Position numbers and translations under genes: made by a program. Of a stretch of DNA of 64,000 nucleotides, positions 32,149-49,877 are shown one piece after another (the stretch's first letter is position 1; each line of letters opens with the position of its first letter). The notes beneath the pieces were generated by a model. The model did no database searches. It was not told the DNA's origin and saw nothing but the letters and a program-made list of their open reading frames with translations. Origin of the DNA: Achromobacter denitrificans NBRC 15125 (GTDB lineage Bacteria; Pseudomonadota; Gammaproteobacteria; Burkholderiales; Burkholderiaceae_B); contig NZ_BCTQ01000002.1 in assembly GCF_001571365.1 (NCBI RefSeq), positions 124,001 through 188,000 of the forward strand, given 5' to 3'.

Positions 32149-32844
32149 TCAGAAGGCGTCCAGCCATAGATCGAGCGCCTGGCGCGCGTGGCGCGCCAGC
32201 GACGGGCCATGCTGCGCGGCGTCGCGGCGGACGGCGGCGGGATCGATGCCGCGCAGGCTCAATTCGCAGGCATGGCCGATCAGCCACTGCTCGATCTTCG
32301 CCGCGTCGGCTTCCAGGTGGAATTGCAGGCCCAGTATCCGCGGTCCCAGCGCAAACGCCTGGTTGGGAAAGCCCGGCGTTTCGGCAAGGCGCCGCGCTCC
32401 AGCCGGAATGCCGAACTGGTCGCCGTGCCAATGCAGCACTGGCACGGACTCGACCGCCCGCAACGGCGATTCGCGGCCTTCCCCGGTCAGCGTCAAGGGC
32501 GCATAGCCGATTTCGACGCGTCCGGTCGACGCCACCTCCGCCCCCAGGGCCGCCGCCATGAGTTGCGCGCCCAGGCAGATGCCCAGGGTCGGCCTGTCGC
32601 GGCGCAGCCGCTCGCCAATGGCCCGCAGCTCGGCTTCCAGGAAGGGATAGCGGTCGGTTTCGTAGACCCCGATGGGCCCGCCCAGGATCACGACGAGATC
32701 GGCCTGCGCCAGGACGTCGGGGTCTATCGCGTCCACGCCCGCCTCCAGGTAGCGCACGGCATAACCCCGGTCCGCCAGGGCCGGCGCCAGGACTCCCAGG
32801 TCTTCGAAAGGAACATGGCGGATCGCAAGGGCGAGGCGGCTCAT
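32149..32844 (-). CDS. Class I glutamine amidotransferase-like protein
   Basis: A 231-residue stand-alone type 1 glutamine amidotransferase domain. The nucleophile is Cys90 (LGICLGAQLMA) and the His-Glu pair lies in GLQFHLEAD. Similar proteins are annotated as GMP-synthase-like; some hydrolyse gamma-glutamyl compounds. I start at MSRLALAIRH (32844), overlapping the upstream small gene by 4 nt (ATGA). It is the last gene of the yggS operon. The substrate is unknown. Confidence 0.85.
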   Translation of the reverse strand: MSRLALAIRHVPFEDLGVLAPALADRGYAVRYLEAGVDAIDPDVLAQADLVVILGGPIGVYETDRYPFLEAELRAIGERLRRDRPTLGICLGAQLMAAALGAEVASTGRVEIGYAPLTLTGEGRESPLRAVESVPVLHWHGDQFGIPAGARRLAETPGFPNQAFALGPRILGLQFHLEADAAKIEQWLIGHACELSLRGIDPAAVRRDAAQHGPSLARHARQALDLWLDAF

Positions 32845-33128
32845 GACAGCGACTCCTGGCGGCGGCACGCGCGGCGCCCCGCCGCGCCCGCCAGGCCTTC
32901 CGGAACGGACTTGAACAGGGTTTCCGAGGCCAGCACGCGAATGCCGGCCGGGGTGCTTTCGAGCAGCCGCCGCTCGCCGTCGGCGATCTGCAGGCTGACC
33001 TGGTAGCCATCCTCGGACGGCAGGCGCGACGCGATCTCCCGGCAGTCATCCTGCGTCGAGGCGAGGGTCGATTCGAAATGGCCGATGAGGCGGCCGTGGC
33101 GCATGATGACGAGTCGGTGAACCGGCAT
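32841..33128 (-). CDS. Small uncharacterised protein in the yggS operon
   Basis: A 95-residue protein that I do not recognise. It begins MPVHRLVIMRHGRLIGHFES, contains a central DGYQVSLQIADGERRLLES stretch that looks like two beta strands, and ends in a basic tail. AGGA lies 8 nt before the ATG. Its stop overlaps the amidotransferase start by 4 nt and it follows yggS by 45 bp, so it is a real member of a three-gene operon. Soluble, no signal peptide. Confidence 0.65.
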   Translation of the reverse strand: MPVHRLVIMRHGRLIGHFESTLASTQDDCREIASRLPSEDGYQVSLQIADGERRLLESTPAGIRVLASETLFKSVPEGLAGAAGRRACRRQESLS

Positions 33129-33173: not shown

Positions 33174-34001
33174 TCAGGCCGCGGAATCGGCGCCGGGATC
33201 GGTCGGCCAGTAATAGGAATCCGGCGTATTGCGGGCGCCGAAGATGGCCTGCCCGACCCGCACCACCGTCGCGCCTTCCTCGATGGCGATTTCGTAGTCG
33301 CCGGACATGCCCATCGACAGGTCGTCCAGGCCGATCCCGGCAGGACAGTCCTGGCGCAGCCGGTCCCGCAGCGAACGCAGCAGGATGAAGCATTCCCGCA
33401 CCCGCGCGGCCTCGGCCGAAAATACCGCCAGCGTCATCAGCCCGCGCACGCGCAGCGCCGGAAAGGACGGCATCTGCCGCAGGAAGGCCGCGGTCTCGTC
33501 CGGATGCAGGCCGTACTTGCTGGCCTCGCCCGACGTGTTGACCTGCACGAACACGTCCAGCGCGCGGCCTTCGGCCTGCAGGCGCCGGTCCAGCGCCTCG
33601 GCCACTCTCAAGCTGTCGAGCGCCTGGAACTCGGCGGCGTAGCGCGCGACCAGCTTGGCCTTGTTGGTCTGCAGATGGCCGATGACCGACCATTTCAGAT
33701 CGGTCAGGTCGGCCATGGCATCCCACTTGCGCGACACTTCTTGCAGCTTGTTCTCGCCGAGATAGCGGCAGCCCGCGGCATAGGCCAGCCGGATGCGCGC
33801 CTCTTCCACGGTCTTGCTCACGGGCAACAGGCGCACGCTGGCGGGATCGCGCCCGGCGCGCTCGCAGGCCGCCGCGATCCGGCCGTGCACGGTAGCCAGG
33901 TTGCGGCGGAAGTCTTCCACCGATTCCGCCTTCGGCCATCGGCCGTGCTGGTCGTGCTGCGTCTGGGTATCGCTGCCCGGACCCTGGGTGTCTTGGTTCA
34001 T
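33174..34001 (-). CDS. yggS: YggS/PLPBP-family PLP homeostasis protein
   Basis: A 275-residue PLP-binding TIM-barrel protein of the YggS/PROSC family. The PLP lysine is Lys63 (LLPVSKTVEEAR), followed by YLGENKLQEV, IGHLQTNKAK, VNTSGEASKYGL, LSMGMSGDYEIAI and VRVGQAIFG, all family hallmarks. Family proteins buffer PLP and affect amino-acid pools; no catalysis is known. The N-terminal 25 residues are polar and longer than usual. I start at MNQDTQ (34001). The mRNA leader would include a strong hairpin (34027-34057), and an AT-rich dyad lies just upstream. Confidence 0.9.
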   Translation of the reverse strand: MNQDTQGPGSDTQTQHDQHGRWPKAESVEDFRRNLATVHGRIAAACERAGRDPASVRLLPVSKTVEEARIRLAYAAGCRYLGENKLQEVSRKWDAMADLTDLKWSVIGHLQTNKAKLVARYAAEFQALDSLRVAEALDRRLQAEGRALDVFVQVNTSGEASKYGLHPDETAAFLRQMPSFPALRVRGLMTLAVFSAEAARVRECFILLRSLRDRLRQDCPAGIGLDDLSMGMSGDYEIAIEEGATVVRVGQAIFGARNTPDSYYWPTDPGADSAA

Positions 34002-34061: not shown

Positions 34062-34093
34062 TTTGTCATAGGTCAAATATTATCATGACCTAT
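34062..34093. promoter_or_regulatory. AT-rich dyad upstream of yggS (related half of a 38-bp element)
   Basis: Starts TTTGTCATAGGTCA exactly like the element at 37497, and has its own perfect arms ATAGGTCA (34068-34075) and TGACCTAT (34086-34093) around an AATATTAT centre. The distal AGGACAAA arm seen at the other two sites is missing. It sits about 60 bp before the yggS start. Confidence 0.55.
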
Positions 34094-34123
34094 AAAGCGT
34101 TACGCAAGCGATGCGCCGACGAC

Positions 34124-34990
34124 TCAGCCGCCGGCGGCCAGCCAGGAACGCGGCGACGCGCCCATCCGCTGCCGGAACGCCTTGGACAACGACGAGGCGC
34201 TGGCGAAGCCCAGCTCCGCCGCCACCAGTTTCACGGGCCGGCCGGCGCGCACCATGGAGGCCGCGAGGCTCAGGCGCCAGTCCGTCAGATAGGCCGCCGG
34301 CGTGGCGCCGGTGGCCTCCTTGAAGGCCGCCGCGAAGGCGCTGCGCGACATGCCGGCGACCTCGGCCATTTTCGCCAGCGGCCACTCGTCGCAAGGCGCG
34401 CGGTGCACGGCCACCAGCGCCCGGGCCAGGCGCGGGTCCGACAGGCCCATGACCAGGCCGCGCGTGACGCCGGCTTCTCCCGGATGGTCGAGGATCCACC
34501 GGAGCAGCTGGATCAGCACCACCTCGAACAGCCGGTCGGCCAACAGCCGCGAGCCGCAGCGCACGTGGTCGGCTTCGGCGAACAGCAGGTCCAGCGCCGG
34601 GGCCAGCCCCTCGACGGCGGCCAGGGGCACGCGGATCAGCGGCGGCAGCGACCGCACCAGGGGATTGCGGTCCCCGCCGTCGAAATCGAGCGCCGCGCAG
34701 GTGAAGTCCGACCCGTCCACGGGCGGGTTCACGAACTCGTGCCGCAGCGCGCGGGGGTAGAAGAGCAGCGTGGGCTCGTCCAGGTGTATGCGCGGCGTGG
34801 CGGTTTCGCCCGGACGATGCCGCAGTTCCATCTGGCCGCGCCGCAAGACGTGCAGGAAACCGCGCCCCGGCACCGCCTCGAACGCCTGGGTGCCGCAGAG
34901 CGCGCCGGTGTGGAACAGCGTGGCCCGCACCCTGAAGCGGTCCAGCAGCGCCGAGAGCCGGTCTACCTGGGGAAAGGCGACATCATTCAT
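34124..34990 (-). CDS. AraC-family regulator with N-terminal cupin
   Basis: A 288-residue AraC/XylS protein. The N-terminal half is a cupin-type ligand domain (the cupin_6 type: VRATLFHTGALCG, then HVLRRGQMELRH), the C-terminal third holds two helix-turn-helix motifs (LAKMAEVAGMSRSAFAAAFK and PVKLVAAELGFASASSLSKA). I start at MNDVAFPQ (34990). It is divergent from the AhpD-like gene at 35113 with TGGAC repeats between them. This arrangement, an AraC cupin regulator next to an AhpD-like or carboxymuconolactone-decarboxylase-like gene, is common and suggests oxidative-stress or aldehyde-type induction. Confidence 0.9.
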   Translation of the reverse strand: MNDVAFPQVDRLSALLDRFRVRATLFHTGALCGTQAFEAVPGRGFLHVLRRGQMELRHRPGETATPRIHLDEPTLLFYPRALRHEFVNPPVDGSDFTCAALDFDGGDRNPLVRSLPPLIRVPLAAVEGLAPALDLLFAEADHVRCGSRLLADRLFEVVLIQLLRWILDHPGEAGVTRGLVMGLSDPRLARALVAVHRAPCDEWPLAKMAEVAGMSRSAFAAAFKEATGATPAAYLTDWRLSLAASMVRAGRPVKLVAAELGFASASSLSKAFRQRMGASPRSWLAAGG

Positions 34991-34994
34991 GACT

Positions 34995-35040
34995 TGGACG
35001 TATGGACAATTTTCGTGGACATGAGAGCACCATGCGTCCA
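34995..35040. promoter_or_regulatory. TGGAC repeats, candidate AraC operator
   Basis: TGGAC occurs at 34995, 35003 and 35016 and in reverse (GTCCA) at 35036, all in the 122-bp divergent region between the AraC gene and the AhpD-like gene. AraC proteins bind direct repeats, so these are plausible half sites. Confidence 0.45.
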
Positions 35041-35112
35041 GACATTCTACGTACGATTCCCAGTAACCACCCGACAGGGATGGCCTCTTTTTCATTTCCA
35101 GGAGTTACCGTC

Positions 35113-35658
35113 ATGTCCCGAGTTCCCCTTATCGATGCCAACATCACCACCCCCGACCGCAAGGCCCTGCTGGAGCAGATCCACGGCGCTTTCGGCGCGA
35201 CGCCCAATATGTTCCGGGCCGTCGCCAACTCGCCCGCCGCGCTCAAGAGCATGTGGGGCGCCTTCGGCGCGCTGGGCGAGGGCGTGATCCCCGCCAAGCT
35301 GGGCGAACAGATCGCGGTGGCCGTGGCCGACCGCAACGGATGCGAATACTGCCTCGCGGCCCATACCGCGCTGGGCCGCAAGGCCGGCGCCAGCGCCGAG
35401 GAAATGTCCGCCGCCCAGGGCGGCAACGCCGCCGATCCCAAGACCGCCGCGGCGCTGCGCTTCGCGCTGAAGCTGGTCGAAGCCCGCGGCCAGGTCGGCG
35501 ATGCCGACGTGCAGGCCGTGCGGGCCGCCGGTTTCGGCGATCAGGAGATCGTGGAAATCCTGGCGCACGTCGCGCTCAATCTGTTCACGAACTACGTCAA
35601 CGTGGCGTTCGCGGTTCCGGTCGACTTCCCCGCCGTGAAACTGCGCCGCGCCGCGTAA
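35113..35658 (+). CDS. AhpD-like / carboxymuconolactone decarboxylase-family peroxidase
   Basis: A 181-residue all-helical AhpD-like protein. The redox motif is GCEYCLAAHT with Cys77, Cys80 and His84, preceded by the conserved glutamate in LGEQIAVAV. Members act as alkylhydroperoxidases or unspecified reductases with a cysteine pair. AGGAG lies 8 nt before the ATG at 35113. It is divergent from the AraC regulator that probably controls it and followed 72 bp later by a thioredoxin-like gene, so the two likely work together in peroxide handling. Confidence 0.9.
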   Translation: MSRVPLIDANITTPDRKALLEQIHGAFGATPNMFRAVANSPAALKSMWGAFGALGEGVIPAKLGEQIAVAVADRNGCEYCLAAHTALGRKAGASAEEMSAAQGGNAADPKTAAALRFALKLVEARGQVGDADVQAVRAAGFGDQEIVEILAHVALNLFTNYVNVAFAVPVDFPAVKLRRAA

Positions 35659-35730
35659 CTCCCGGCCGATAGCGCCTCCCTCCGGACGGGACGGCCCGCC
35701 GCCCCGTCCGCTCTGTTCCAGGAGTCTTCC

Positions 35731-36303
35731 ATGTCTTCCCATGATGCGCCGCCCCTGCAGGTGGACGAATGGCTGAACACGACCGGCCCGCTCGATCTTG
35801 CCTCTCTGCGCGGCAAGGTGGTCCTGCTGCACGCCTTCCAGATGCTGTGCCCCGGATGTCTGATGCACGGCCTGCCCCAGGCCGAGCGCGCGCACCGGCT
35901 GTTCGGCAAGGACGGCGTCGTGGTCATCGGCCTGCATACCGTGTTCGAACACCACGCCGTAATGGGCCCCGAAGCCCTGCGGGCGTTCAACCATGAATAC
36001 CAGTGGTCCTTCCCCATCGGGATCGACCGGCCCGCGGCGCGCGGCGCCATTCCCTTGACCATGCAGGCCTACGACCTGCGCGGCACTCCCAGCCTCGTCC
36101 TGCTGGACCGCGGCGGCCGCGTGCGCCTGCAACACTTCGGCAGCCTGGACGATCTGGCGCTCGGCGCCGCCATCGGCCGCCTGCTGTCCGAGGAGGCGCC
36201 ACGCGGCCTTGCCGCCGTCGCCGGCCAGGCGGCCGCCGACGATGCCCGGGAAACCTGCGACGCCACCGGCTGCCCGGCGCCGGACGACCGCCAGCGGCGC
36301 TGA
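35731..36303 (+). CDS. TlpA-like thioredoxin-fold protein
   Basis: A 190-residue thioredoxin-superfamily protein with a CPGC redox centre (Cys40, Cys43) in FQMLCPGCLMHGLP and a cis-proline at RGTPSLVLL. No signal peptide, so it is cytoplasmic. The sequence resembles redoxin/AhpC-TSA-type proteins. The tail after residue 165 is polar and contains two further cysteines. AGGAG precedes the ATG by 7 nt. It likely shares a transcript with the AhpD-like gene and may act as its reductant; this is inference. Confidence 0.85.
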   Translation: MSSHDAPPLQVDEWLNTTGPLDLASLRGKVVLLHAFQMLCPGCLMHGLPQAERAHRLFGKDGVVVIGLHTVFEHHAVMGPEALRAFNHEYQWSFPIGIDRPAARGAIPLTMQAYDLRGTPSLVLLDRGGRVRLQHFGSLDDLALGAAIGRLLSEEAPRGLAAVAGQAAADDARETCDATGCPAPDDRQRR

Positions 36304-36329
36304 CGCGATCAGCGGGCCGCCTGCCTGCG

Positions 36330-37439
36330 TCAGGGCATGGCCGCGGCCCGCATGCCCGCGCCCGCCTCCGGCAACAGGGCGCGGAAGGTGCGCACCAGGT
36401 ATGCCATCTGCTCTTCGGTGCCCACGGTGATGCGCAGATACTGCTCCACCCTGGGCTTCCGGAAATGCCGCACGAGGATTCTCGCGTCCCGCAGGCGCGC
36501 CGCCAGCTCCCGCGCGTCCTCGCGGGGATGGCGGACGAACAGGAAGTTCGCCTGGGACGGCAGCACATCGAAGCCAAGCAATTTCAGCTGCATCATGAGC
36601 TTGGTCCGCGACCGCATGATGGCCTGGCGCGTGGCCTCGAAGTGCGCGCGGTCGTCGATGGCCGCCGCCGCGCCCGCCTGGGCCAGGCGGCCGAGCGGAT
36701 AGGAGTTGAAGCTGTTCTTCACCCGCTCCAGCGCCTCGATCAGCGGCGCCTGCCCGATCGCGAATCCCACGCGCAGGCCGGCCAGGGCGCGCGACTTCGA
36801 CAGGGTCTGCACCACCAGCAGATTCGCATACCGGTCCACCAGTTCGATCGCGGTCTGCCCCCCGAAGTCCACGTACGCTTCGTCCACGAGCACCAGCCGG
36901 TCCGGCCGCAGATCCAGCAGCCGCTGCACGCGGCCGGGCGGCAGTCCCTCGCCGGTCGGCGCGTTCGGATTGGCGATAACGATGCCCGCGATGTCCGACG
37001 CCGCGCGCGCCGCGAACCCGTCCAGGTCCAGCCTCAGGTGATCGTCCACCGGGACCGGCGCGCACCGGATGCCATACAGCCGGCAATACACCTCATAAAA
37101 ACCGTAGGTCACGTCGGCCATCAGCAAGGGCTGCTGCCCATGCTGGAAGAAGGCGCAAAAGGCCAGCGCCAGCACTTCGTCGGATCCGTTGCCCACGAAC
37201 ACCTGTTCCGTCGGCACGCCGTGGTGCGCGGCGATGCGCTCGCGCAGCCGCCGCGCCTGCGGATCGGGGTAGCGCTCCAGGCCCTGGGCCGCCGCCGCCG
37301 CGATCGCCGCTATCGCGGCGGGCGACGGCGGGTAGGGGTTCTCATTGGTATTGAGCTTGACCCAGCCGTCGCCGGGCGCCTGCTCTCCGGGCACGTAGGG
37401 CATCAGCCCATCGACCCGGGGACTGTGTATGGAATCCAT
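36330..37439 (-). CDS. hisC: Histidinol-phosphate aminotransferase paralog
   Basis: A 369-residue class I/II PLP aminotransferase of the HisC family: LNTNENPYPPSPAA, NGSDEVLALAF, NPNAPTGE, VDEAYVDF and the PLP lysine in TLSKSRALAGLRVGF. HisC makes histidinol phosphate, and paralogs also use aromatic amino acids. The start is uncertain: MDSIHSP (37439) fits homologs but lacks a nearby ribosome site, while an upstream ATG at 37490 would add 17 odd residues. A 38-bp palindromic element lies just upstream, between this gene and psd. It stands alone, away from histidine genes. Confidence 0.85.
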   Translation of the reverse strand: MDSIHSPRVDGLMPYVPGEQAPGDGWVKLNTNENPYPPSPAAIAAIAAAAAQGLERYPDPQARRLRERIAAHHGVPTEQVFVGNGSDEVLALAFCAFFQHGQQPLLMADVTYGFYEVYCRLYGIRCAPVPVDDHLRLDLDGFAARAASDIAGIVIANPNAPTGEGLPPGRVQRLLDLRPDRLVLVDEAYVDFGGQTAIELVDRYANLLVVQTLSKSRALAGLRVGFAIGQAPLIEALERVKNSFNSYPLGRLAQAGAAAAIDDRAHFEATRQAIMRSRTKLMMQLKLLGFDVLPSQANFLFVRHPREDARELAARLRDARILVRHFRKPRVEQYLRITVGTEEQMAYLVRTFRALLPEAGAGMRAAAMP

Positions 37440-37496
37440 ATTGCTGCGGCAAGCGCCCTCCGTAAACGATGACGGGACCATTCCGCTCATCGCCTA

Positions 37497-37534
37497 TTTG
37501 TCATAGGTCATAATATACTATGATGCAGGACAAA
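37497..37534. promoter_or_regulatory. 38-bp palindromic element between hisC and psd
   Basis: TTTGTCAT (37497-37504) and AGGACAAA (37527-37534) bound an AT-rich centre that also contains the inner pair TCATAG/CTATGA. Outer pairing extends to TATTTGTC/GACAAATA (37495-37502, 37529-37536). The same size and arms recur at 42158-42195. It is placed to control both divergent genes. Confidence 0.65.
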
Positions 37535-37568
37535 TAAATCATCTTCCGACCCGACCCGCGCCCGCAAT

Positions 37569-37589
37569 CCCGCGCAAGTCTTGCGCGGG
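37569..37589 (+). other. Perfect hairpin before the psd start codon
   Basis: CCCGCGCAA-GTC-TTGCGCGGG forms a 9-bp perfect stem ending 10 nt before the psd ATG. No Shine-Dalgarno sequence is visible between the hairpin and the ATG, so the hairpin may shape translation of psd. Confidence 0.55.
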
Positions 37590-37599
37590 CCTTGCACCC

Positions 37600-38454
37600 A
37601 TGACCCCTTCCCTGCTGCTGCAACGCCTTCTTCCCCTGCATTGGCTCACCCGCTGCGCGGGCCGCCTGGCCGCCAGCCGCCGCGCCTGGATCGCCCAGCC
37701 GCTGATCCAGACGTATGCGCGGCGGTATGGCGTGGACCTGGCCGAGGCTGCGCTGGCCAACCCGCGCGCCTATGAGAGTTTCAACGCCTTCTTCGCCCGC
37801 GCCTTGCGCCCCGGCTCCCGCCCGCTGGCCAATGCCGACTGGACCAGCCCCGCCGACGGGACTGTCAGCCAGCTGGGACGCCTGCACCGGGGCCGGCTGA
37901 TACAAGCCAAGCAACGGCCCTACAGCGCGGCCGCGCTGCTGGGCGACGCGGCGCTGGCGCGGCAACTGGAAGGCGGGCTGTTCACCACGATCTACCTCAG
38001 CCCGCGCGACTACCACCGCGTTCACATGCCGTGCGCGGGCCGCCTGCTGGGCATGCGTTACGTGCCGGGCACGCTGTACTCGGTGCGGCCGGAGATCGTG
38101 CAAGGCATCGACGGGCTGCTGGCCCGCAACCAGCGGCTGGTGTGCTGGTTCGAACATCCCCGCCACGGGGTCTATGCGATGGTGCTGGTGGGCGCCGCCA
38201 TCGTGGGCGGCATCGCGGCCGCCTGGCATGGCCGGATCGCGCCGGCGGGCGGCCCGATCCGGCTCTGGACGTACCCGGACGAGGCATCGGCCCCCACCCT
38301 GCCGCAAGGCGCGGAGATGGGGCACTTCGAGCTGGGATCGACCGTGGTGATGCTGATGTCGCCCGGCGCCTGGCGCTTCCACCCGGACTGGACGGCCGGC
38401 GGCGCCGTCCGGATGGGGCAGGCCCTGACCCGGTGCCGGGAACAGGCCCTATAG
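37600..38454 (+). CDS. psd: Phosphatidylserine decarboxylase proenzyme
   Basis: A 284-residue membrane-associated, pyruvoyl-dependent enzyme that makes phosphatidylethanolamine. The self-cleavage site LGST is at 245-248 (Ser247 becomes the pyruvoyl group) in FELGSTVVML. The triad partners are Asp86 (PADGTV) and His143 (HRVHMP). Length is normal. The ATG at 37600 has no clear ribosome site but a 9-bp hairpin just upstream. A Bordetella-type genome may hold another psd copy in the pssA region, so this could be a paralog. Its end overlaps the convergent MocR gene by 6 bp. Confidence 0.9.
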   Translation: MTPSLLLQRLLPLHWLTRCAGRLAASRRAWIAQPLIQTYARRYGVDLAEAALANPRAYESFNAFFARALRPGSRPLANADWTSPADGTVSQLGRLHRGRLIQAKQRPYSAAALLGDAALARQLEGGLFTTIYLSPRDYHRVHMPCAGRLLGMRYVPGTLYSVRPEIVQGIDGLLARNQRLVCWFEHPRHGVYAMVLVGAAIVGGIAAAWHGRIAPAGGPIRLWTYPDEASAPTLPQGAEMGHFELGSTVVMLMSPGAWRFHPDWTAGGAVRMGQALTRCREQAL

Positions 38455-39741
38455 GCTGTCCCGGATGTCTCGGGCCAACTCCCGGCTCTGCGCGACATTG
38501 ATGTCGGAAATGGTGACTCGCAGCCCCCTCACGGGATCCTGGACGCCGAAGGCATCGCCATGGCGCACCAGCCAGCCGCGATGAGCCAGCGCCAGGGCGA
38601 CGGCCTGGTCGTCGCCTTCCACGGGAATCCAGAGATTGAGGCCGTCGCCCTGCTCGGCGCACGGCACGCCCTGCTCCCGCAGCGCGTCTTCCAGGGTTTG
38701 GCGGCGCCGGACGTAGTCTTCGCGGGCGCGCGCCATCAGCTTGGCGACCTCGGGCCGGCCGAGCGTGACTTCGACCATATCCTGCAGCAGGTGGCTGACC
38801 CAGCTGGTGCCGGACGCCAAACGCAGCCGCAGCTGCCGCGACGTCGCGGGATCGCTGGCCACCATGGCGACGCGCACGTCGGGCCCCAGCGTCTTGCTCA
38901 GCGACCGGACCAGCGCCCAGCGCTGCGCGCCGGCCGCCAGCACCGAGTGATACTCGGCGTTGGACAGCAGCGCGAAGTGGTCGTCCACGATGACCATGGC
39001 GTGCGGGTACTTCGCCAGGACGCGCGCCAGCGCCCGGGCGCGCCGGGCGCTCAGGCTGCAGCCGGTGGGATTGTGCGCGCGCGGCGTCAGGATCACCGCC
39101 TGCGCGCCCTTGGCCAGCGCGCCCTCCAGGGCCTGGGCCTGCATGCCCTCTGCGTCGACGGGCACGCCGATCGCCTGCAGGCCGGCGATGCGCAGCATGT
39201 TCACGCTGCTGAGAAAGCAGGGATTCTCGACCGCCACCTTGTCGCCGGCGACCAGGTGCGAACCCAGCAGCCGCTCGATGGCGTCCACCGCGCCGTGGGT
39301 CAGGTTGACCTCGAACGGCGCCGGGCAATCCGGCGCGAACCAGGCCCGCGCATAGTCTTCCAGGCCCGGGTTGACGGTGGGCGCGCCGTAGAGCCGCGGC
39401 CGATAGGGGCGCAGCGAGAAGGCGGCGGAGACGTCCGGCAGCCAGTCCAGGTTCGGATTGCCGCTGGCCAGGTCCACGAGAGGCGTATTGGTCAGCGCGC
39501 CCTCCTGCTCGCCGGGGCCGGAGGGCTCCCGGATGATCGTTCCCAGCCGCCCCTGCGTCACGGCGATGCCGGCCGCGGACAGCCGCTTATACGCCGCCGC
39601 GACCGTATTGCGGTTGATATCCAGCTCGACCGCGAGGTCGCGCACCGGAGGCAGGGCCTGGCCGGGACGCAACTGCCCCGACTGCAGCAGCGCGCGCACG
39701 CAATCGAAGATTTCCGCTGCGGTCTTTCCTTGTATTTTCAT
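38449..39741 (-). CDS. MocR-family GntR/aminotransferase regulator, PtsJ-like
   Basis: A 430-residue GntR winged helix (AEIFDCVRALLQSGQLRPGQ, then DINRNTVAAAYKRL) fused to an aminotransferase-like domain with the PLP lysine in RSLSKTLGPDVRVA. It resembles the PtsJ branch, known in Salmonella as a regulator of pyridoxal kinase. I start at MKIQGKT (39741), with GGGA about 7 nt upstream; the longer frame needs a TTG. It lies between the two copies of the 38-bp element (37497 and 42158), making it the natural candidate to bind them. Confidence 0.9.
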   Translation of the reverse strand: MKIQGKTAAEIFDCVRALLQSGQLRPGQALPPVRDLAVELDINRNTVAAAYKRLSAAGIAVTQGRLGTIIREPSGPGEQEGALTNTPLVDLASGNPNLDWLPDVSAAFSLRPYRPRLYGAPTVNPGLEDYARAWFAPDCPAPFEVNLTHGAVDAIERLLGSHLVAGDKVAVENPCFLSSVNMLRIAGLQAIGVPVDAEGMQAQALEGALAKGAQAVILTPRAHNPTGCSLSARRARALARVLAKYPHAMVIVDDHFALLSNAEYHSVLAAGAQRWALVRSLSKTLGPDVRVAMVASDPATSRQLRLRLASGTSWVSHLLQDMVEVTLGRPEVAKLMARAREDYVRRRQTLEDALREQGVPCAEQGDGLNLWIPVEGDDQAVALALAHRGWLVRHGDAFGVQDPVRGLRVTISDINVAQSRELARDIRDSL

Positions 39742-39840
39742 ATCGTCCCGAGACAATGCCGTTCCGGGCGGTGACAGCCCCGAGGCCGCGCCCAGTCAAT
39801 GCGCAAGTTTGACACGATTGGATCGCCGAATAAAGCGCGC

Positions 39841-42105
39841 TCACCGCACGCAATCCACGTAATAGCGCAGGTTTCCCTCGTCATCCCGCAATTCCACGAA
39901 CCCATGGATATCGGTGCCGAAGCCCGGACATTGCCGGTTCAGCTCGCGCGAGAACTTGAGGTAATCCACGATGGTGCGATTGAAGACCTCCCCCGGAATC
40001 AGGAGCGGAATGCCGGGCGGATAGGGCGTGATCAGGCTGGTGGTAATGCGGCCTTCGAGATGGTCGATCTCCACCCTCTCGGTCCGGCGATGGGCGATGC
40101 AGGCGTACGCGTCGCTGGGCTTCATGGCCGGCGCCACGTCCGTCAGGTACATGTCGGTGGTCAACCGGGCGATATCGTGGCGGGCATAGGTTTCGTGCAC
40201 ATGCTGGCACAGGTCGCGCAGCCCCAGGCTCTCGTACCGGGGGTGCTTCTTGCAGAACTCGGGCAGGATCCGCCACATGGGCTGGTTGCGCTCGTAATCC
40301 TCCTTGAACTGCTGCAACGCGGTCAGCAGGGAACTCCAGCGGCCCTTGGTGATGCCGATGGTGAACATGATGAAGAAGCTGTAGAGCCCGGTCTTTTCGA
40401 CGATCACGCCGTGCTCGGCCAGGAATTTCGTAACGATGGATGCTGGAATGCCGCTGGCGGCGAAATCGCCGTTCAGGTCCAGGCCCGGCGTAACGATGGT
40501 GGACTTGATCGGATCCAGCATGTTGAAGCCGTCGGCCAGCGCGCCGAAACCGTGCCACGACGCCTCGTCGCCGCCGTCCCGGATGATCCAGTCCTCCGCG
40601 GACCCGATGCCTTCGGGGGCCAGCGTTTCCGGCCCCCACACCGTGAACCACCAGTCGCCCGGCGCGAAATGCGATCCCACCTCGCGCATTGCGCGGCGGA
40701 AGTCCAGCGCCTCGGCGATGCTTTCCTCCACCAGCACCGTGCCGCCCGGCGGCTCCATCATGGACGCCGCCACGTCGCAGCTGGCGATGATGGCGTATTG
40801 CGGGCTGGTGCTGGTGTGCATCAGGTACGCCTCGTTGAACAGGTGGCGGTCCAGCCGGCGCGTCATCGAATCCTGCACCAGCACGTGGCTGGCCTGGCTG
40901 ATCCCCGCGAGCAGCTTGTGCGTCGACTGCGTTGAAAACACCAGCGACTCCTTCGGCCGCGCGCGCCGCCGGCCCATGCAGTGGTAGGCGCCATAGAACG
41001 GATGGAATACCGCGTGCGGCATCCAGGCCTCGTCGAAGTGCAGCACCTCGACGTAGCCATCCAGCGCTTCCTTGATCGTCTCGGTCTGGTAGATGATGCC
41101 GTCGTAGGTGGACTGGGTCAGCGCCATCACGCGCGGGCGCACCTCCGCGGCATCCAGGTTCCGCAGCAAGGGATGCGCGCGGATCTTTTCCTGGATGGTC
41201 TCCACGTCGAACTCGCTGCGCGGAATCGGGCCGATGATGCCGAAGTGATTGCGCGTGGGCCGCAGGAACACAGGAATCGCGCCCGTCATCACGATGCTGT
41301 GCAGGATGGACTTGTGGCAGTTCCTGTCGACCACGACCACGTCGCCGGGCGCCACCGTGTGGTGCCAGACGATCTTGTTGCTGGTGCTGGTTCCGTTGGT
41401 CACGAAATAGCAGTGGTCCGCGTTGAAGATCCGCGCCGCATTGCGCTCGCTCGCGCCGATGGCGCCGTTGTGGTCCAGCAGCTGGCCCAGTTCCTCGACC
41501 GCGTTGCAGACGTCGGCGCGCAACATGTTCTCGCCGAAGAACTGATGGAACATCTGGCCCACCGGGCTCTTCAGGAAGGCCACGCCGCCCGAATGGCCCG
41601 GGCAATGCCAGGAATAGGAGCCGTCCTCGGCGTAGTCCAGCAAGGCCTTGAGGAACGGCGGCTTGACGCCTTCCAGGTAGGCCTTGGCCTCGCGGATCAG
41701 GTGGCGGGCCACGAACTCCGGCGTGTCCTCGAACATGTGGATCACGCCCTGGAGCTCGCGCAGGATGTCGTTCGGAATGTGGCGCGCGGTCTTGGTTTCG
41801 CCGTAGACGTAGATCGGCACATCCGCGTTGCGGCGCCTGACCTCGCTGATGAAGGCCCGCAGCGCCAGCAGCGCCGGCGCCACGCCGTCGCCGTGCGCCA
41901 GCTCCTCGTCGTCGATGGACAGGATGAACGCGCTGGCCCGGCTCTGCTGCTGCGCGAACAGGCTGAGGTCGCCGTAGCTGGTGGTGCCAAGCACGTCGAA
42001 GCCCTCCGCCCGGATGGCTTCCGCCAGCACCCGGATGCTCAGGCCCGACGTGTTCTCCGAGCGGAAGTCCTCGTCGATGATGACGATGGGAAACTGAAAC
42101 TGCAT
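39841..42105 (-). CDS. Class III Orn/Lys/Arg PLP decarboxylase
   Basis: A 754-residue fold-type I PLP decarboxylase of the inducible lysine/arginine/ornithine group. It has an N-terminal wing domain (1-130, response-regulator-like), then a core with CPGHSGG (168-174), NGTSTSNK, HFDEAW (356-361) and the PLP lysine Lys397 in STQSTHKLLAG. These make cadaverine, agmatine or putrescine, often for acid resistance or polyamine supply. Which amino acid is used cannot be read here. No antiporter gene is adjacent, unlike cad/adi operons. The gene is divergent from tRNA-Cys across a region with the 38-bp palindromic element. Confidence 0.9.
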   Translation of the reverse strand: MQFQFPIVIIDEDFRSENTSGLSIRVLAEAIRAEGFDVLGTTSYGDLSLFAQQQSRASAFILSIDDEELAHGDGVAPALLALRAFISEVRRRNADVPIYVYGETKTARHIPNDILRELQGVIHMFEDTPEFVARHLIREAKAYLEGVKPPFLKALLDYAEDGSYSWHCPGHSGGVAFLKSPVGQMFHQFFGENMLRADVCNAVEELGQLLDHNGAIGASERNAARIFNADHCYFVTNGTSTSNKIVWHHTVAPGDVVVVDRNCHKSILHSIVMTGAIPVFLRPTRNHFGIIGPIPRSEFDVETIQEKIRAHPLLRNLDAAEVRPRVMALTQSTYDGIIYQTETIKEALDGYVEVLHFDEAWMPHAVFHPFYGAYHCMGRRRARPKESLVFSTQSTHKLLAGISQASHVLVQDSMTRRLDRHLFNEAYLMHTSTSPQYAIIASCDVAASMMEPPGGTVLVEESIAEALDFRRAMREVGSHFAPGDWWFTVWGPETLAPEGIGSAEDWIIRDGGDEASWHGFGALADGFNMLDPIKSTIVTPGLDLNGDFAASGIPASIVTKFLAEHGVIVEKTGLYSFFIMFTIGITKGRWSSLLTALQQFKEDYERNQPMWRILPEFCKKHPRYESLGLRDLCQHVHETYARHDIARLTTDMYLTDVAPAMKPSDAYACIAHRRTERVEIDHLEGRITTSLITPYPPGIPLLIPGEVFNRTIVDYLKFSRELNRQCPGFGTDIHGFVELRDDEGNLRYYVDCVR

Positions 42106-42157
42106 GGCTGTCCTCTATCGGTATGCCGCCGCCCCGCGGCCGGCGCTTGCAAATTGC

Positions 42158-42195
42158 TTTGTCCTGGATAATAATTATATATGTCTTAGGACAAA
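42158..42195. promoter_or_regulatory. 38-bp palindromic element between the decarboxylase and tRNA-Cys
   Basis: TTTGTCCT (42158-42165) and AGGACAAA (42188-42195) are perfect 8-bp arms around a 22-bp AT-rich centre. Geometry and right arm are identical to the element at 37497. It lies 52 bp upstream of the decarboxylase ATG and 6 bp before the tRNA. Confidence 0.65.
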
Positions 42196-42201
42196 ACAAA
42201 C

Positions 42202-42275
42202 GGCGCGGTGGCAGAGTGGCTATGCAGCAGATTGCAAATCCGCAGAGGTTGGTTCGATTCCAGCCCGCGCCTCCA
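42202..42275 (+). tRNA. tRNA-Cys (GCA anticodon)
   Basis: A 74-nt cloverleaf with encoded CCA: acceptor GGCGCGG/CCGCGCC, D stem GCA/TGC, anticodon loop TTGCAAA (GCA at 42234-42236), T stem GTTGG/CCAGC with loop TTCGATT. The anticodon stem has one mismatch: A at 42229 faces C at 42241 (position 29:41), where most tRNA-Cys have a G-C pair. It may be a second, weaker copy or tolerate the mismatch. Confidence 0.9.
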
Positions 42276-48272: not shown

Positions 48273-49877
48273 TCAATAGCCTATCGGGTGACCGTCCTTG
48301 CGATGGTCCGACGCCGCCAGATAGCCGCCCTGCTCCAGCCGCATCGCCATCTGGGCGCTGCCGAACTCCAGGTCGAAGCGCGGCGCCACCTCGACCTGAT
48401 GGCCGAAGGCGCGCAACTGCTCGACCGCCTCGGGCGGACAATTCCATTCCACCGCCACGCCGACGTTGTCGTCCTTGATGCGCCAGCGCGGCGCATCGCT
48501 GGCCGCCTGCGGATTCTGGCCGAAATCGGCCAGCCGGCTCGTGACCTGCAGATGCCCCTGGGCCTGCATCGAGCCGCCCATCACGCCGAAGCTCATCAGG
48601 GGCCGCCCCCGCTTCATCAGGAAACCCGGGATGATGGTGTGGAACGGCCGCTTGCCCGGCGCGACCACGTTGGGATGCCCCGCCCTCGTGGAAAAGCCCC
48701 AGCCCCGGTTCTGCAGGGCGATCCCCGTGCCCGGCACCACCACGCCCGAGCCGAAGCCCTTGAAGTTGGACTGGATGAACGACACCATGGTGCCGTGCCG
48801 GTCGGCGGCGGTGAGGTAGACCGTTCCGCCGCTGTGCGGATTGCCCGGCCGCGGCTGGCCCGCCCGAGCCGGATCGATCAGCCTGGCGCGTTCGGCCAGG
48901 TAGGCCGGGTCCAGCAATTGCGCGCTGGACACGTCCATGTGATCCGGATCCCCCACGTGCGCGTACAGGTCCGCGAACGCCAGGCGCATGGCCTCGATCT
49001 GCAGGTGCAGCGTGCGTCCGGTATCGCGCCCGCTTTCGCCCAGGTCGAAATGTTCCAGCATGCCCAGCCCCATCAAGGCGCCGATGCCCTGGCCGTTCGG
49101 GCCGATCTCGAACAGTTCCAGGTCGCGGTAGCGCATGCCGATGGGTTCCACCCAATCCGCCTGGTGGCGCGCCAGGTCCGCTTCCGTGATGTAGCCGCCC
49201 GTATTGCGCGCATGGGCCGCGATGGCCGCCGCCAGTTCGCCTCGGTAGAAGCTGTCGCCCTTGCTGCGGGCGATGCTCTCCAGCGTCGCCGCCTGGCCCG
49301 GGCAGCGGAAGCGTTCGCCCGGCAGCGGCGCCCGCCCGCCGGGCGCGAACGATTCGGCGAAGCCGGGCTGCCCGCTCAGGCGCGGCACCTGCTTTTGCCA
49401 TTGCCGATGCACCGTGGGCGACACCAGGTAGCCGTCGCGCGCGTAGCGGATGGCTGGCTCGAACAGGTCCTCGAAGGGCAGCGACCCGAATTTCTCCCAG
49501 ATCGCGCGCCATCCGGACACCACGCCGGGCACGGTCACGCTGCCCCAGCCGATGGGATCCATGCCGTCCAGGTGCGCGAAGCGCGCCGTCTCCCACGCCG
49601 CCGGCGCGCGGCCGGAGGCGTTCAGCCCGTGCAGCCGCCCCTCGTGCCAGACGATGGCGAACATGTCGCCGCCGATGCCGTTCATGCAGGGCTCGACCAC
49701 GGTGAGGGTGATGGCGGTCGCCAGCGCCGCATCGATGGCGTTGCCGCCGCGCGCGTACATTTGCAGGCCGGCGGCGCTGGCCAGCGGCTGCGAGGTGCTG
49801 ACCACGTTGTCCGCCAGCACCGGCATGCGCTGCGACGGATAGGGAAGCTGCCAGAAGGGATTGTTGGAAATGGGCAT
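48273..49877 (-). CDS. Gamma-glutamyltransferase-like Ntn hydrolase
   Basis: A 534-residue GGT-family protein, self-cleaving between the large and small subunits. The likely nucleophile is Thr352 (HSGGTVYLTAAD), with GIGGDMF (68-73) and the SGVVVPGTGI segment. No signal peptide is visible, unlike periplasmic GGTs, so it is probably cytoplasmic. Related proteins include oxamate amidohydrolase and cephalosporin acylases, so glutathione is not assured. It follows a TctC gene by 33 bp, suggesting that the receptor delivers its amide or gamma-glutamyl substrate. Confidence 0.85.
   Translation of the reverse strand: MPISNNPFWQLPYPSQRMPVLADNVVSTSQPLASAAGLQMYARGGNAIDAALATAITLTVVEPCMNGIGGDMFAIVWHEGRLHGLNASGRAPAAWETARFAHLDGMDPIGWGSVTVPGVVSGWRAIWEKFGSLPFEDLFEPAIRYARDGYLVSPTVHRQWQKQVPRLSGQPGFAESFAPGGRAPLPGERFRCPGQAATLESIARSKGDSFYRGELAAAIAAHARNTGGYITEADLARHQADWVEPIGMRYRDLELFEIGPNGQGIGALMGLGMLEHFDLGESGRDTGRTLHLQIEAMRLAFADLYAHVGDPDHMDVSSAQLLDPAYLAERARLIDPARAGQPRPGNPHSGGTVYLTAADRHGTMVSFIQSNFKGFGSGVVVPGTGIALQNRGWGFSTRAGHPNVVAPGKRPFHTIIPGFLMKRGRPLMSFGVMGGSMQAQGHLQVTSRLADFGQNPQAASDAPRWRIKDDNVGVAVEWNCPPEAVEQLRAFGHQVEVAPRFDLEFGSAQMAMRLEQGGYLAASDHRKDGHPIGY

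Follow-up and report, generated by a model that had tools for sequence, protein, structure and literature searches.

Which regulator reads a group of near-palindromic elements lying around a MocR gene of Achromobacter denitrificans, and is the tRNA gene beside one of them among its targets? In the window (the whole stretch of 64,000 nucleotides that was analysed), an earlier note had reported two 38-bp elements, at 37497–37534 and 42158–42195, and both were found as described. Each is made of two 16-bp near-palindromes with centres 22 bp apart, and the basic unit is the near-palindrome TTTGWCMTAKGWCAAA, in which two inverted boxes surround a short spacer (the box division is our own reading). 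With at most 3 mismatches, the 38-bp pattern was observed 4 times in the window, both strands counted, versus 0.07 expected in dinucleotide shuffles, and 0 of 100 shuffles reached 4 matches. The third site of the note, at 34062, is more aptly regarded as a single unit of 16 bp without mismatch, TTTGTCATAGGTCAAA (34062–34077), in the same register as the long sites and with a poor partner at the 22-bp spacing (7 mismatches). Six 16-mers of the window are within 4 mismatches of the unit; five are accounted for by the three sites and the second halves of the two long ones, and the sixth is a stray at 49034. The 16-bp unit and the division of the long element into two such units were absent from the earlier note.

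All three sites lie upstream of genes. Candidate operator A (34062–34077) is 60 bp upstream of the start codon of yggS (33174–34001, minus strand), which encodes a PLP homeostasis protein (TIGR00044; query 33174–33998, first Met left off) of the family that we take to be COG325. On the same strand follow a small ORF without a Pfam match (32841–33128) and a class-I glutamine amidotransferase gene (32149–32868, NF005458), possibly part of the yggS operon; relatives of the latter have a unit upstream in loci L201 and L212. Candidate operator B (37497–37534; units with 1 and 4 mismatches) separates a HisC-type aminotransferase gene (36330–37490, minus strand, TIGR01141) from the phosphatidylserine decarboxylase gene psd (37600–38454, plus strand, PF02666, TIGR00163). 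An alternative hisC start at 37439 would make room for a leader behind this operator. Units of relatives are found before psd in six loci (L053, L055–L058 and L066), and also upstream of yggS. The earlier grouping of the neighbours as PLP-enzyme genes is only partly right, since phosphatidylserine decarboxylase is a pyruvoyl enzyme, not a PLP enzyme.

Candidate operator C (42158–42195; units with 4 and 2 mismatches) lies between odc (39841–42105, minus strand), which encodes an accessory, paralogous Orn/Lys/Arg decarboxylase whose best PDB relative is 6q6i, and a tRNA-Cys gene with a GCA anticodon (42202–42275, plus strand). It overlaps the guessed promoters of both. The tRNA gene is an accessory copy, here called tRNA-Cys2, and the genome's other tRNA-Cys matches it at 84%; the earlier note recorded neither this accessory status nor that the tRNA gene may itself be a target. 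Operator positions 17–22 read TAnAAT in 17 of 20 aligned odc sites, which only suggests an odc-strand promoter there; the best promoter scores were mostly within the shuffled range. The MocR gene (38449–39741) is on the same strand as odc and downstream of it. In the 16-mer scan of the window no unit was found directly in front of this gene, so that its autoregulation would rest on co-transcription with odc.

The MocR protein, placed by the earlier note between the two full copies and called PtsJ-like, scored 691.9 bits against the PtsJ equivalog NF012025 (cut-off 573). It combines a GntR winged helix (PF00392, residues 8–69) with a fold-type-I aminotransferase-like domain (PF00155, residues 88–426). 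K283, D254 and N224, the presumed Lys, Asp and Asn of the PLP site in this fold, are invariant in an alignment of 12 sequences, 46–100% identical to that of the window. The model was applied to the window protein and to that of the Salmonella locus L244; most of the 80 named loci described below were recognised as encoding PtsJ by tblastn (52–88% identity).

Presence of the unit was compared with presence of ptsJ in Achromobacter. A unit with at most 1 mismatch was found in 18/18 ptsJ+ genomes versus 4/25 ptsJ− genomes, two of the latter being incomplete (57% and 78%), and one of the underlying scans was confined to the 28 best candidates of each genome; the Fisher value (p = 1.4e-8) overstates the evidence, because genomes within one genus are not independent. 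Genus-wide, the unit gave 43 matches versus 6 for the reversed pattern, and the four ptsJ− genomes with a unit have no yggS, odc or ptsJ within 1.5 kb on either side of it. The operator also follows the accessory decarboxylase: it was present at 19 of 20 odc orthologues (about 80% identical or more, own copy included) and at none of 10 examined from the many less identical matches (about 72–75%). Of the 20 genomes with an orthologue, the 14 in which ptsJ had not already been located were searched for it and all were positive, even where ptsJ is far from odc; nine of them (L102–L110) have a distant ptsJ with a unit towards a divergent yggS.

The association extends to other Proteobacteria. Alcaligenaceae sites had supplied the consensus before it was applied to 80 named loci, each encoding a relative of PtsJ. 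In 72 of the 80 a unit precedes ptsJ, yggS or odc, and the reversed motif gave 0; about 20 of the loci share genera with the consensus sites and are not independent of it. Among 91 units with at most 2 mismatches, 87 have ptsJ, yggS, odc, hisC or psd downstream, and the other 4 precede a pyridoxal kinase gene, an amidotransferase gene (twice) and a second ptsJ-like gene. No unit precedes ptsJ, yggS or odc in the other 8 loci, one of which (L201) has a unit before its amidotransferase gene. In a locus of Salmonella and in another of Comamonas, pdxK is preceded by a unit; that of Salmonella (L244, 1 mismatch) is in the gap separating the divergent genes pdxK and ptsJ, and it ends one base before the ptsJ start codon. 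As the unit tracks ptsJ in the genus, occurs at ptsJ, yggS or the decarboxylase gene of the named loci, and is present between Salmonella pdxK and ptsJ, the three elements of the window are very probably operators of the PtsJ encoded at 38449–39741, serving yggS, hisC/psd and an odc-ptsJ operon. The PtsJ score, the co-occurrence with ptsJ and the sites before ptsJ, yggS and pdxK elsewhere support a local regulon linked to PLP status, as the earlier note had suggested, with the MocR protein encoded between the two long copies as its probable regulator.

tRNA-Cys2 was found in 11/18 ptsJ+ versus 0/25 ptsJ− Achromobacter genomes. In the window it folds into a cloverleaf with a GCA anticodon, U73, an encoded CCA and one anticodon-stem mismatch, the sequence features expected of a functional tRNA-Cys gene apart from that mismatch. 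In an alignment of 16 sequences, which left out a degenerate A. veterisilvae copy (L180/L127), the housekeeping gene and repeated sequences, 98.4% of the cells are paired, and 5 pairs have both partners changed. The gene may follow the odc operator, neighbour ptsJ and have a unit to itself, or stand alone, likewise with a unit. As a rule a unit lies immediately upstream, even where the gene is away from odc; the solitary copies, in five genomes (L152–L156), keep one, and no convincing promoter was found for them. In a Comamonas cluster, pdxK-argD-tRNA-Cys-odc-ptsJ, a unit precedes pdxK and the tRNA has none of its own. The housekeeping tRNA-Cys (L149) lacks an upstream unit, and the unit was rejected as a promoter element of all tRNA-Cys genes. 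A search of 399 genomes from the order for tRNA-Cys2 paired with a unit, at zero mismatches, gave the own genome alone; this says little about absence elsewhere, as the pattern allows no mismatch, just 12 of the others are from the family and none of these is known to be ptsJ+. The 38-bp pattern was found in nine genomes, upstream of odc in six of them; in three genomes (G150, G125 and G126) no copy is at a tRNA-Cys. In G125 (L018) the pattern begins 58 bp upstream of a tRNA-Val.

Control by PtsJ was weighed against other origins of the elements. AT-rich inverted repeats within a GC-rich genome could stem from a small repeat that is dispersed or mobile. In the genome-wide scan that the earlier note had proposed, the numerous unrelated copies that would have spoken against its idea were not seen: the exact 38-bp pattern was found just twice in 6.70 Mb (97 contigs), both times inside the window. 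At up to 3 mismatches it matched 11 places versus 8 for the pattern read backwards, so that the weaker matches are ascribed to chance. The flanks of the two copies appear unrelated by eye, and the arms are kept at orthologous sites where much of the flanks has diverged. A dispersed repeat was rejected on copy number and conservation, its likelihood being negligible. Units with at most 1 mismatch occupy five places on either strand of the genome, three in the window and two flanking another MocR gene, a locus that the earlier note did not have; two more places, on contigs C14 and C15, have 2 mismatches, and with up to 2 mismatches the reversed control gave 3–4. That second gene, a PdxR-type MocR beside nirS, raises the alternative that it, or another regulator, reads the unit and ptsJ is merely a target. 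Its two units (C1:373757 and C1:375484) are perfect and could be its sites, and two units (0 or 1 mismatch) flank it in the own genome and in the 4 others, among the 43 genus members, that have the gene. However, it is missing (E up to 1e-90) from 13 of the 18 ptsJ+ genomes with units, and nine orthologues in a related genus (63–65% identical, in ptsJ+ genomes) have no unit with at most 2 mismatches within 1.5 kb on either side, leaving the unit unsupported as an intrinsic site of this regulator. Outside the family, the unit occurs at ptsJ itself and its divergent partners. We regard reading by another regulator as very unlikely.

Another reading accepts the PtsJ operators as real and makes tRNA-Cys2 a bystander, divergent to odc or ptsJ and regulated without a role. 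In 16 of 20 accessory odc loci the tRNA-Cys is simply behind the divergent odc operator; the anticodon stem is mismatched in some copies; the copy of A. veterisilvae, which appears degenerate (34.4 bits, no CCA), lacks a unit; the 90 bp ahead of the Comamonas copy (L226) contain none; and 7 of the 18 ptsJ+ Achromobacter genomes lack a copy of at least 88% identity. Yet elsewhere the upstream unit is mostly kept, beside ptsJ (L101/L223, L126/L195, L066/L193) as well as in the solitary copies. When the tRNA and the 200 bp upstream of it are compared across the five solitary copies, the longest stretches without any change are the tRNA itself (74/74 columns) and a 17-base run containing 14 of the 16 unit bases. 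The cloverleaf is also maintained with compensatory changes across the 16 sequences. We regard the bystander role as less likely than not. The distribution of tRNA-Cys2 and its upstream units suggest that a B6-responsive repressor controls a dedicated tRNA. In the full proposal, a MocR repressor responding to B6 directly controls the accessory tRNA-Cys along with genes related to B6, and the supply of one tRNA would be set by B6 status or by a PLP trap such as cysteine; we consider this evenly balanced.

The unit, its copy number, its linkage to ptsJ and its position at guessed promoters are results of computation; binding of the units by the PtsJ of the window, its effector and a physiological regulation of the tRNA are inferred. 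A centre spacing of 22 bp, about two helical turns, would turn both units to the same face of the helix. PtsJ presumably covers the −10/start region of its promoters and stops transcription and, by analogy with Salmonella, would block more strongly when PLP-bound. PLP or a PLP adduct would change the state of PtsJ and release yggS, perhaps with the amidotransferase gene, as well as hisC/psd and the odc-ptsJ operon; release of the latter would make ptsJ autoregulated. Via the common operator C, tRNA-Cys2 would probably be released as well.

PtsJ of Salmonella, a repressor of B6 salvage, is reported in a review to repress pdxK and itself, more so with PLP (PMC6071262); the system, described by Tramonti et al. 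(2017), also figures in PMC12172467 and PMC13353753. The window protein and that of L244 belong to the same equivalog, and the Salmonella unit at ptsJ faces the divergent pdxK. In contrast, the sites of the window would serve yggS, hisC/psd and the decarboxylase, with an accessory tRNA-Cys as a further probable target; its strong sites are 38-bp double units, and pdxK is not among the genes examined. The PdxR, PdxW and PdxQ regulons are likewise PLP-linked, with many inverted-repeat motifs, and those of PdxR include COG325, a GuaA-family amidotransferase and ArgD-family aminotransferases (Suvorova and Rodionov, 2016; PMC5320631); the 16-bp unit, with its two inverted boxes, fits their two-box type, but the main text lacks the words PtsJ, lysine and Achromobacter, and Table 2 lacks the four-box motif (-> <- -> <-) that is the 38-bp form. 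TrcR of Anabaena (PMC10272220) represses accessory tRNA genes beside housekeeping ones, but it is a ribbon-helix-helix protein acting on a 26-gene tRNA operon in a translational stress response, not a PLP-linked MocR. MpaR of Pseudomonas aeruginosa (PMC10790758) is a MocR regulator with a palindromic target motif and a proposed sensor of a PLP adduct; it differs in driving target expression, in its motif (ATCTGAT) and in its target, a terminal oxidase subunit gene.

These results yield a 16-bp operator consensus for PtsJ that can be tested in beta- and gammaproteobacteria alike, and they predict that in many of these bacteria PtsJ controls yggS, the gene of the PLP carrier. In the organism studied here, the PtsJ regulon appears expanded and its operators doubled. 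In open-access full text on tRNA genes, PtsJ, MocR and YggS, no example was found in which a cofactor sensor controls one particular tRNA gene. If the link to tRNA-Cys2 is true, PtsJ would be such a sensor, an unexpected connection between vitamin B6 and protein synthesis, and the question of why B6 status should be coupled with cysteine decoding becomes testable.

The two 38-bp elements described in an earlier note, at 37497–37534 upstream of hisC/psd and at 42158–42195 upstream of odc and a tRNA-Cys gene, were confirmed in the window sequence, and the genome-wide copy scan proposed there found the exact 38-bp pattern at these two places only in the 6.70 Mb of the strain's genome. Alignment of the half-sites gave a 16-bp near-palindrome, TTTGWCMTAKGWCAAA, referred to here as the unit. 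Each 38-bp element consists of two units spaced 22 bp centre to centre, one of which is better than its partner (1 and 4 mismatches in one element, 4 and 2 in the other). The third site, reported at 34062 upstream of yggS, is indeed a related element, but it is a single perfect unit (34062–34077). The window contains three units within 2 mismatches, compared with a mean of 0.03 in 30 Markov sequences made from it.

The MocR gene at 38449–39741 (−), called PtsJ-like in the earlier note, scores as PtsJ (691.9 bits versus a cut-off of 573), and its product combines a GntR winged helix with an aminotransferase-like domain. The odc gene (39841–42105, −) encodes an Orn/Lys/Arg decarboxylase. Its best relative in the PDB is 6q6i, which we take to be the Pseudomonas aeruginosa lysine decarboxylase LdcA and which the PDB names 'biodegradative arginine decarboxylase'. 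A second odc paralogue, 71% identical, is present elsewhere in the genome, and at least one odc match was found in 243 of 250 family genomes, most among the matches listed being 71–75% identical. The product of yggS (33174–34001, −) is a PLP homeostasis protein (TIGR00044). Downstream of yggS, on the same strand, lies an amidotransferase gene, relatives of which have an upstream unit in two other PtsJ loci.

The surroundings of ptsJ (L050–L066) were compared in 15 more Achromobacter genomes plus two from other genera, these two chosen for the 38-bp pattern. Above-threshold sites preceded odc in 11/11 cases, yggS in 13/14 (the remaining one is at the locus edge) and psd in 6/7; in L063, psd is directly behind odc. 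When 30 odc loci were compared, 19 of the 20 accessory odc orthologues had the operator, matching at least 12 of the 16 arm positions, with L083 the only diverged one, and the 10 less identical odc loci examined matched at 7 to 11 positions. Of the 20 genomes with accessory odc, the 14 that were newly tested all carry ptsJ (46–71% identical, sometimes far from odc), and nine of them (L102–L110) have a unit between ptsJ and the divergent yggS. Within the genus, a unit within 1 mismatch was found in 18/18 genomes with ptsJ (16 from the first scan, G234 and G287) versus 4/25 without it; the Fisher value of 1.4e-8 is only a guide because these genomes are related. The genus gave 43 matches to the forward pattern versus 6 to the reversed one.

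The search was extended to 80 named loci encoding a PtsJ relative (the best 80 of 186, 52–88% identical), ranging from Achromobacter to Massilia, Stutzerimonas, Stenotrophomonas, Citrobacter and Salmonella. At up to 2 mismatches these loci contain 91 units. Of these, 87 precede ptsJ, yggS, odc, hisC or psd, and the other four precede a pyridoxal kinase gene (Comamonas), amidotransferase genes (Herbaspirillum, Massilia) and a second-ptsJ-like gene, assigned by its translation only. The reversed pattern gave no units in the same 80 loci. A unit precedes ptsJ, yggS or odc in 72/80 loci. In the Comamonas locus (L226 4550–11290), an argD-type aminotransferase gene, an accessory-type tRNA-Cys, odc and ptsJ come after the pyridoxal kinase gene on the same strand. 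The second-ptsJ-like gene (L194 9863–11222; unit with 2 mismatches) adjoins a ptsJ–yggS pair. In enterobacterial loci (L234, L238–L240, L243–L248 and others), the unit reads TTTGTCATAGGTCAAT and its end falls close to the ptsJ start codon, so that the operator overlaps the ribosome-binding region. In the Salmonella locus L244, the unit ends one base 5′ of this codon, facing the divergent pdxK. Salmonella PtsJ is described in the literature as repressing pdxK and itself, with PLP strengthening the repression (PMC6071262).

Two perfect units also flank a PdxR-type MocR gene (NF052282; 379.7 bits versus a cut-off of 320) elsewhere in the genome (C1:373757–375499; L148 7758–9500), beside cytochrome cd1-type (nirS-like) and ccsA-like genes. 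The other four Achromobacter genomes with this MocR have a similar pair of units, with 0 or 1 mismatch; such a pair was not found at nine orthologous MocR loci of a related genus. This nirS-linked MocR could share its motif with PtsJ.

A tRNA-Cys 82–84% identical to the window copy is present in all 43 genus genomes, and copies at least 88% identical occur in 11, all with ptsJ (11/18 versus 0/25). The tRNA-Cys at 42202–42275 (+) is not the housekeeping copy. A tRNA-Cys lies behind the operator in 16/20 accessory odc loci, and in L101/L223, L126/L195 and L066/L193 it adjoins ptsJ, again with a unit upstream. No unit was found close upstream of the Achromobacter veterisilvae copy beside ptsJ (L127/L180) or of the Comamonas copy (L226). 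The A. veterisilvae copy also lacks CCA, odc is missing from the region, and this tRNA is apparently decaying. In L065 (8731–9020), three tandem accessory-type tRNA-Cys genes lie behind the odc operator, two of them behind the first, and two of the three carry a compensated acceptor-stem change. A solitary copy in five genomes (L152–L156) has a unit 3–6 bp upstream and is flanked by a catalase-like gene and a murB-like gene, as read from translations (two of the five loci are annotated). Over 200 bp upstream of these solitary copies, the longest invariant run is CATTACGTCCTAGGACA, which contains 14 of the 16 unit bases; the tRNA itself is invariant at 74/74 positions despite one mismatched anticodon-stem pair. 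Across 16 sequences, cloverleaf pairs were kept in 98.4% of cells, with five compensated pairs; one anticodon-stem pair is mismatched in the window copy. Rfam gave 63 bits for the housekeeping tRNA and 43–58 for the accessory copies tested, with the degenerate A. veterisilvae copy at 34. For 12 copies linked to odc or ptsJ, the best-scoring promoter candidates (TTGnnn, 16–17 bp, nAnAAT; modest scores, related copies) would put an operator on or beside the likely start site. Separately, a match to the 38-bp pattern in G125 (L018 1367–1538) begins 58 bp before a tRNA-Val gene and may arise by chance.

Promoter occlusion by PtsJ is the simplest reading of these arrangements. On this view, two-unit sites would give stronger repression, and divergent placement would let one operator serve two transcripts. 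Low PLP, a PLP adduct or an amino acid may be the natural signal. Cysteine forms an adduct with PLP, and we speculate that this is one reason for the presence of a tRNA-Cys in the proposed PtsJ regulon.
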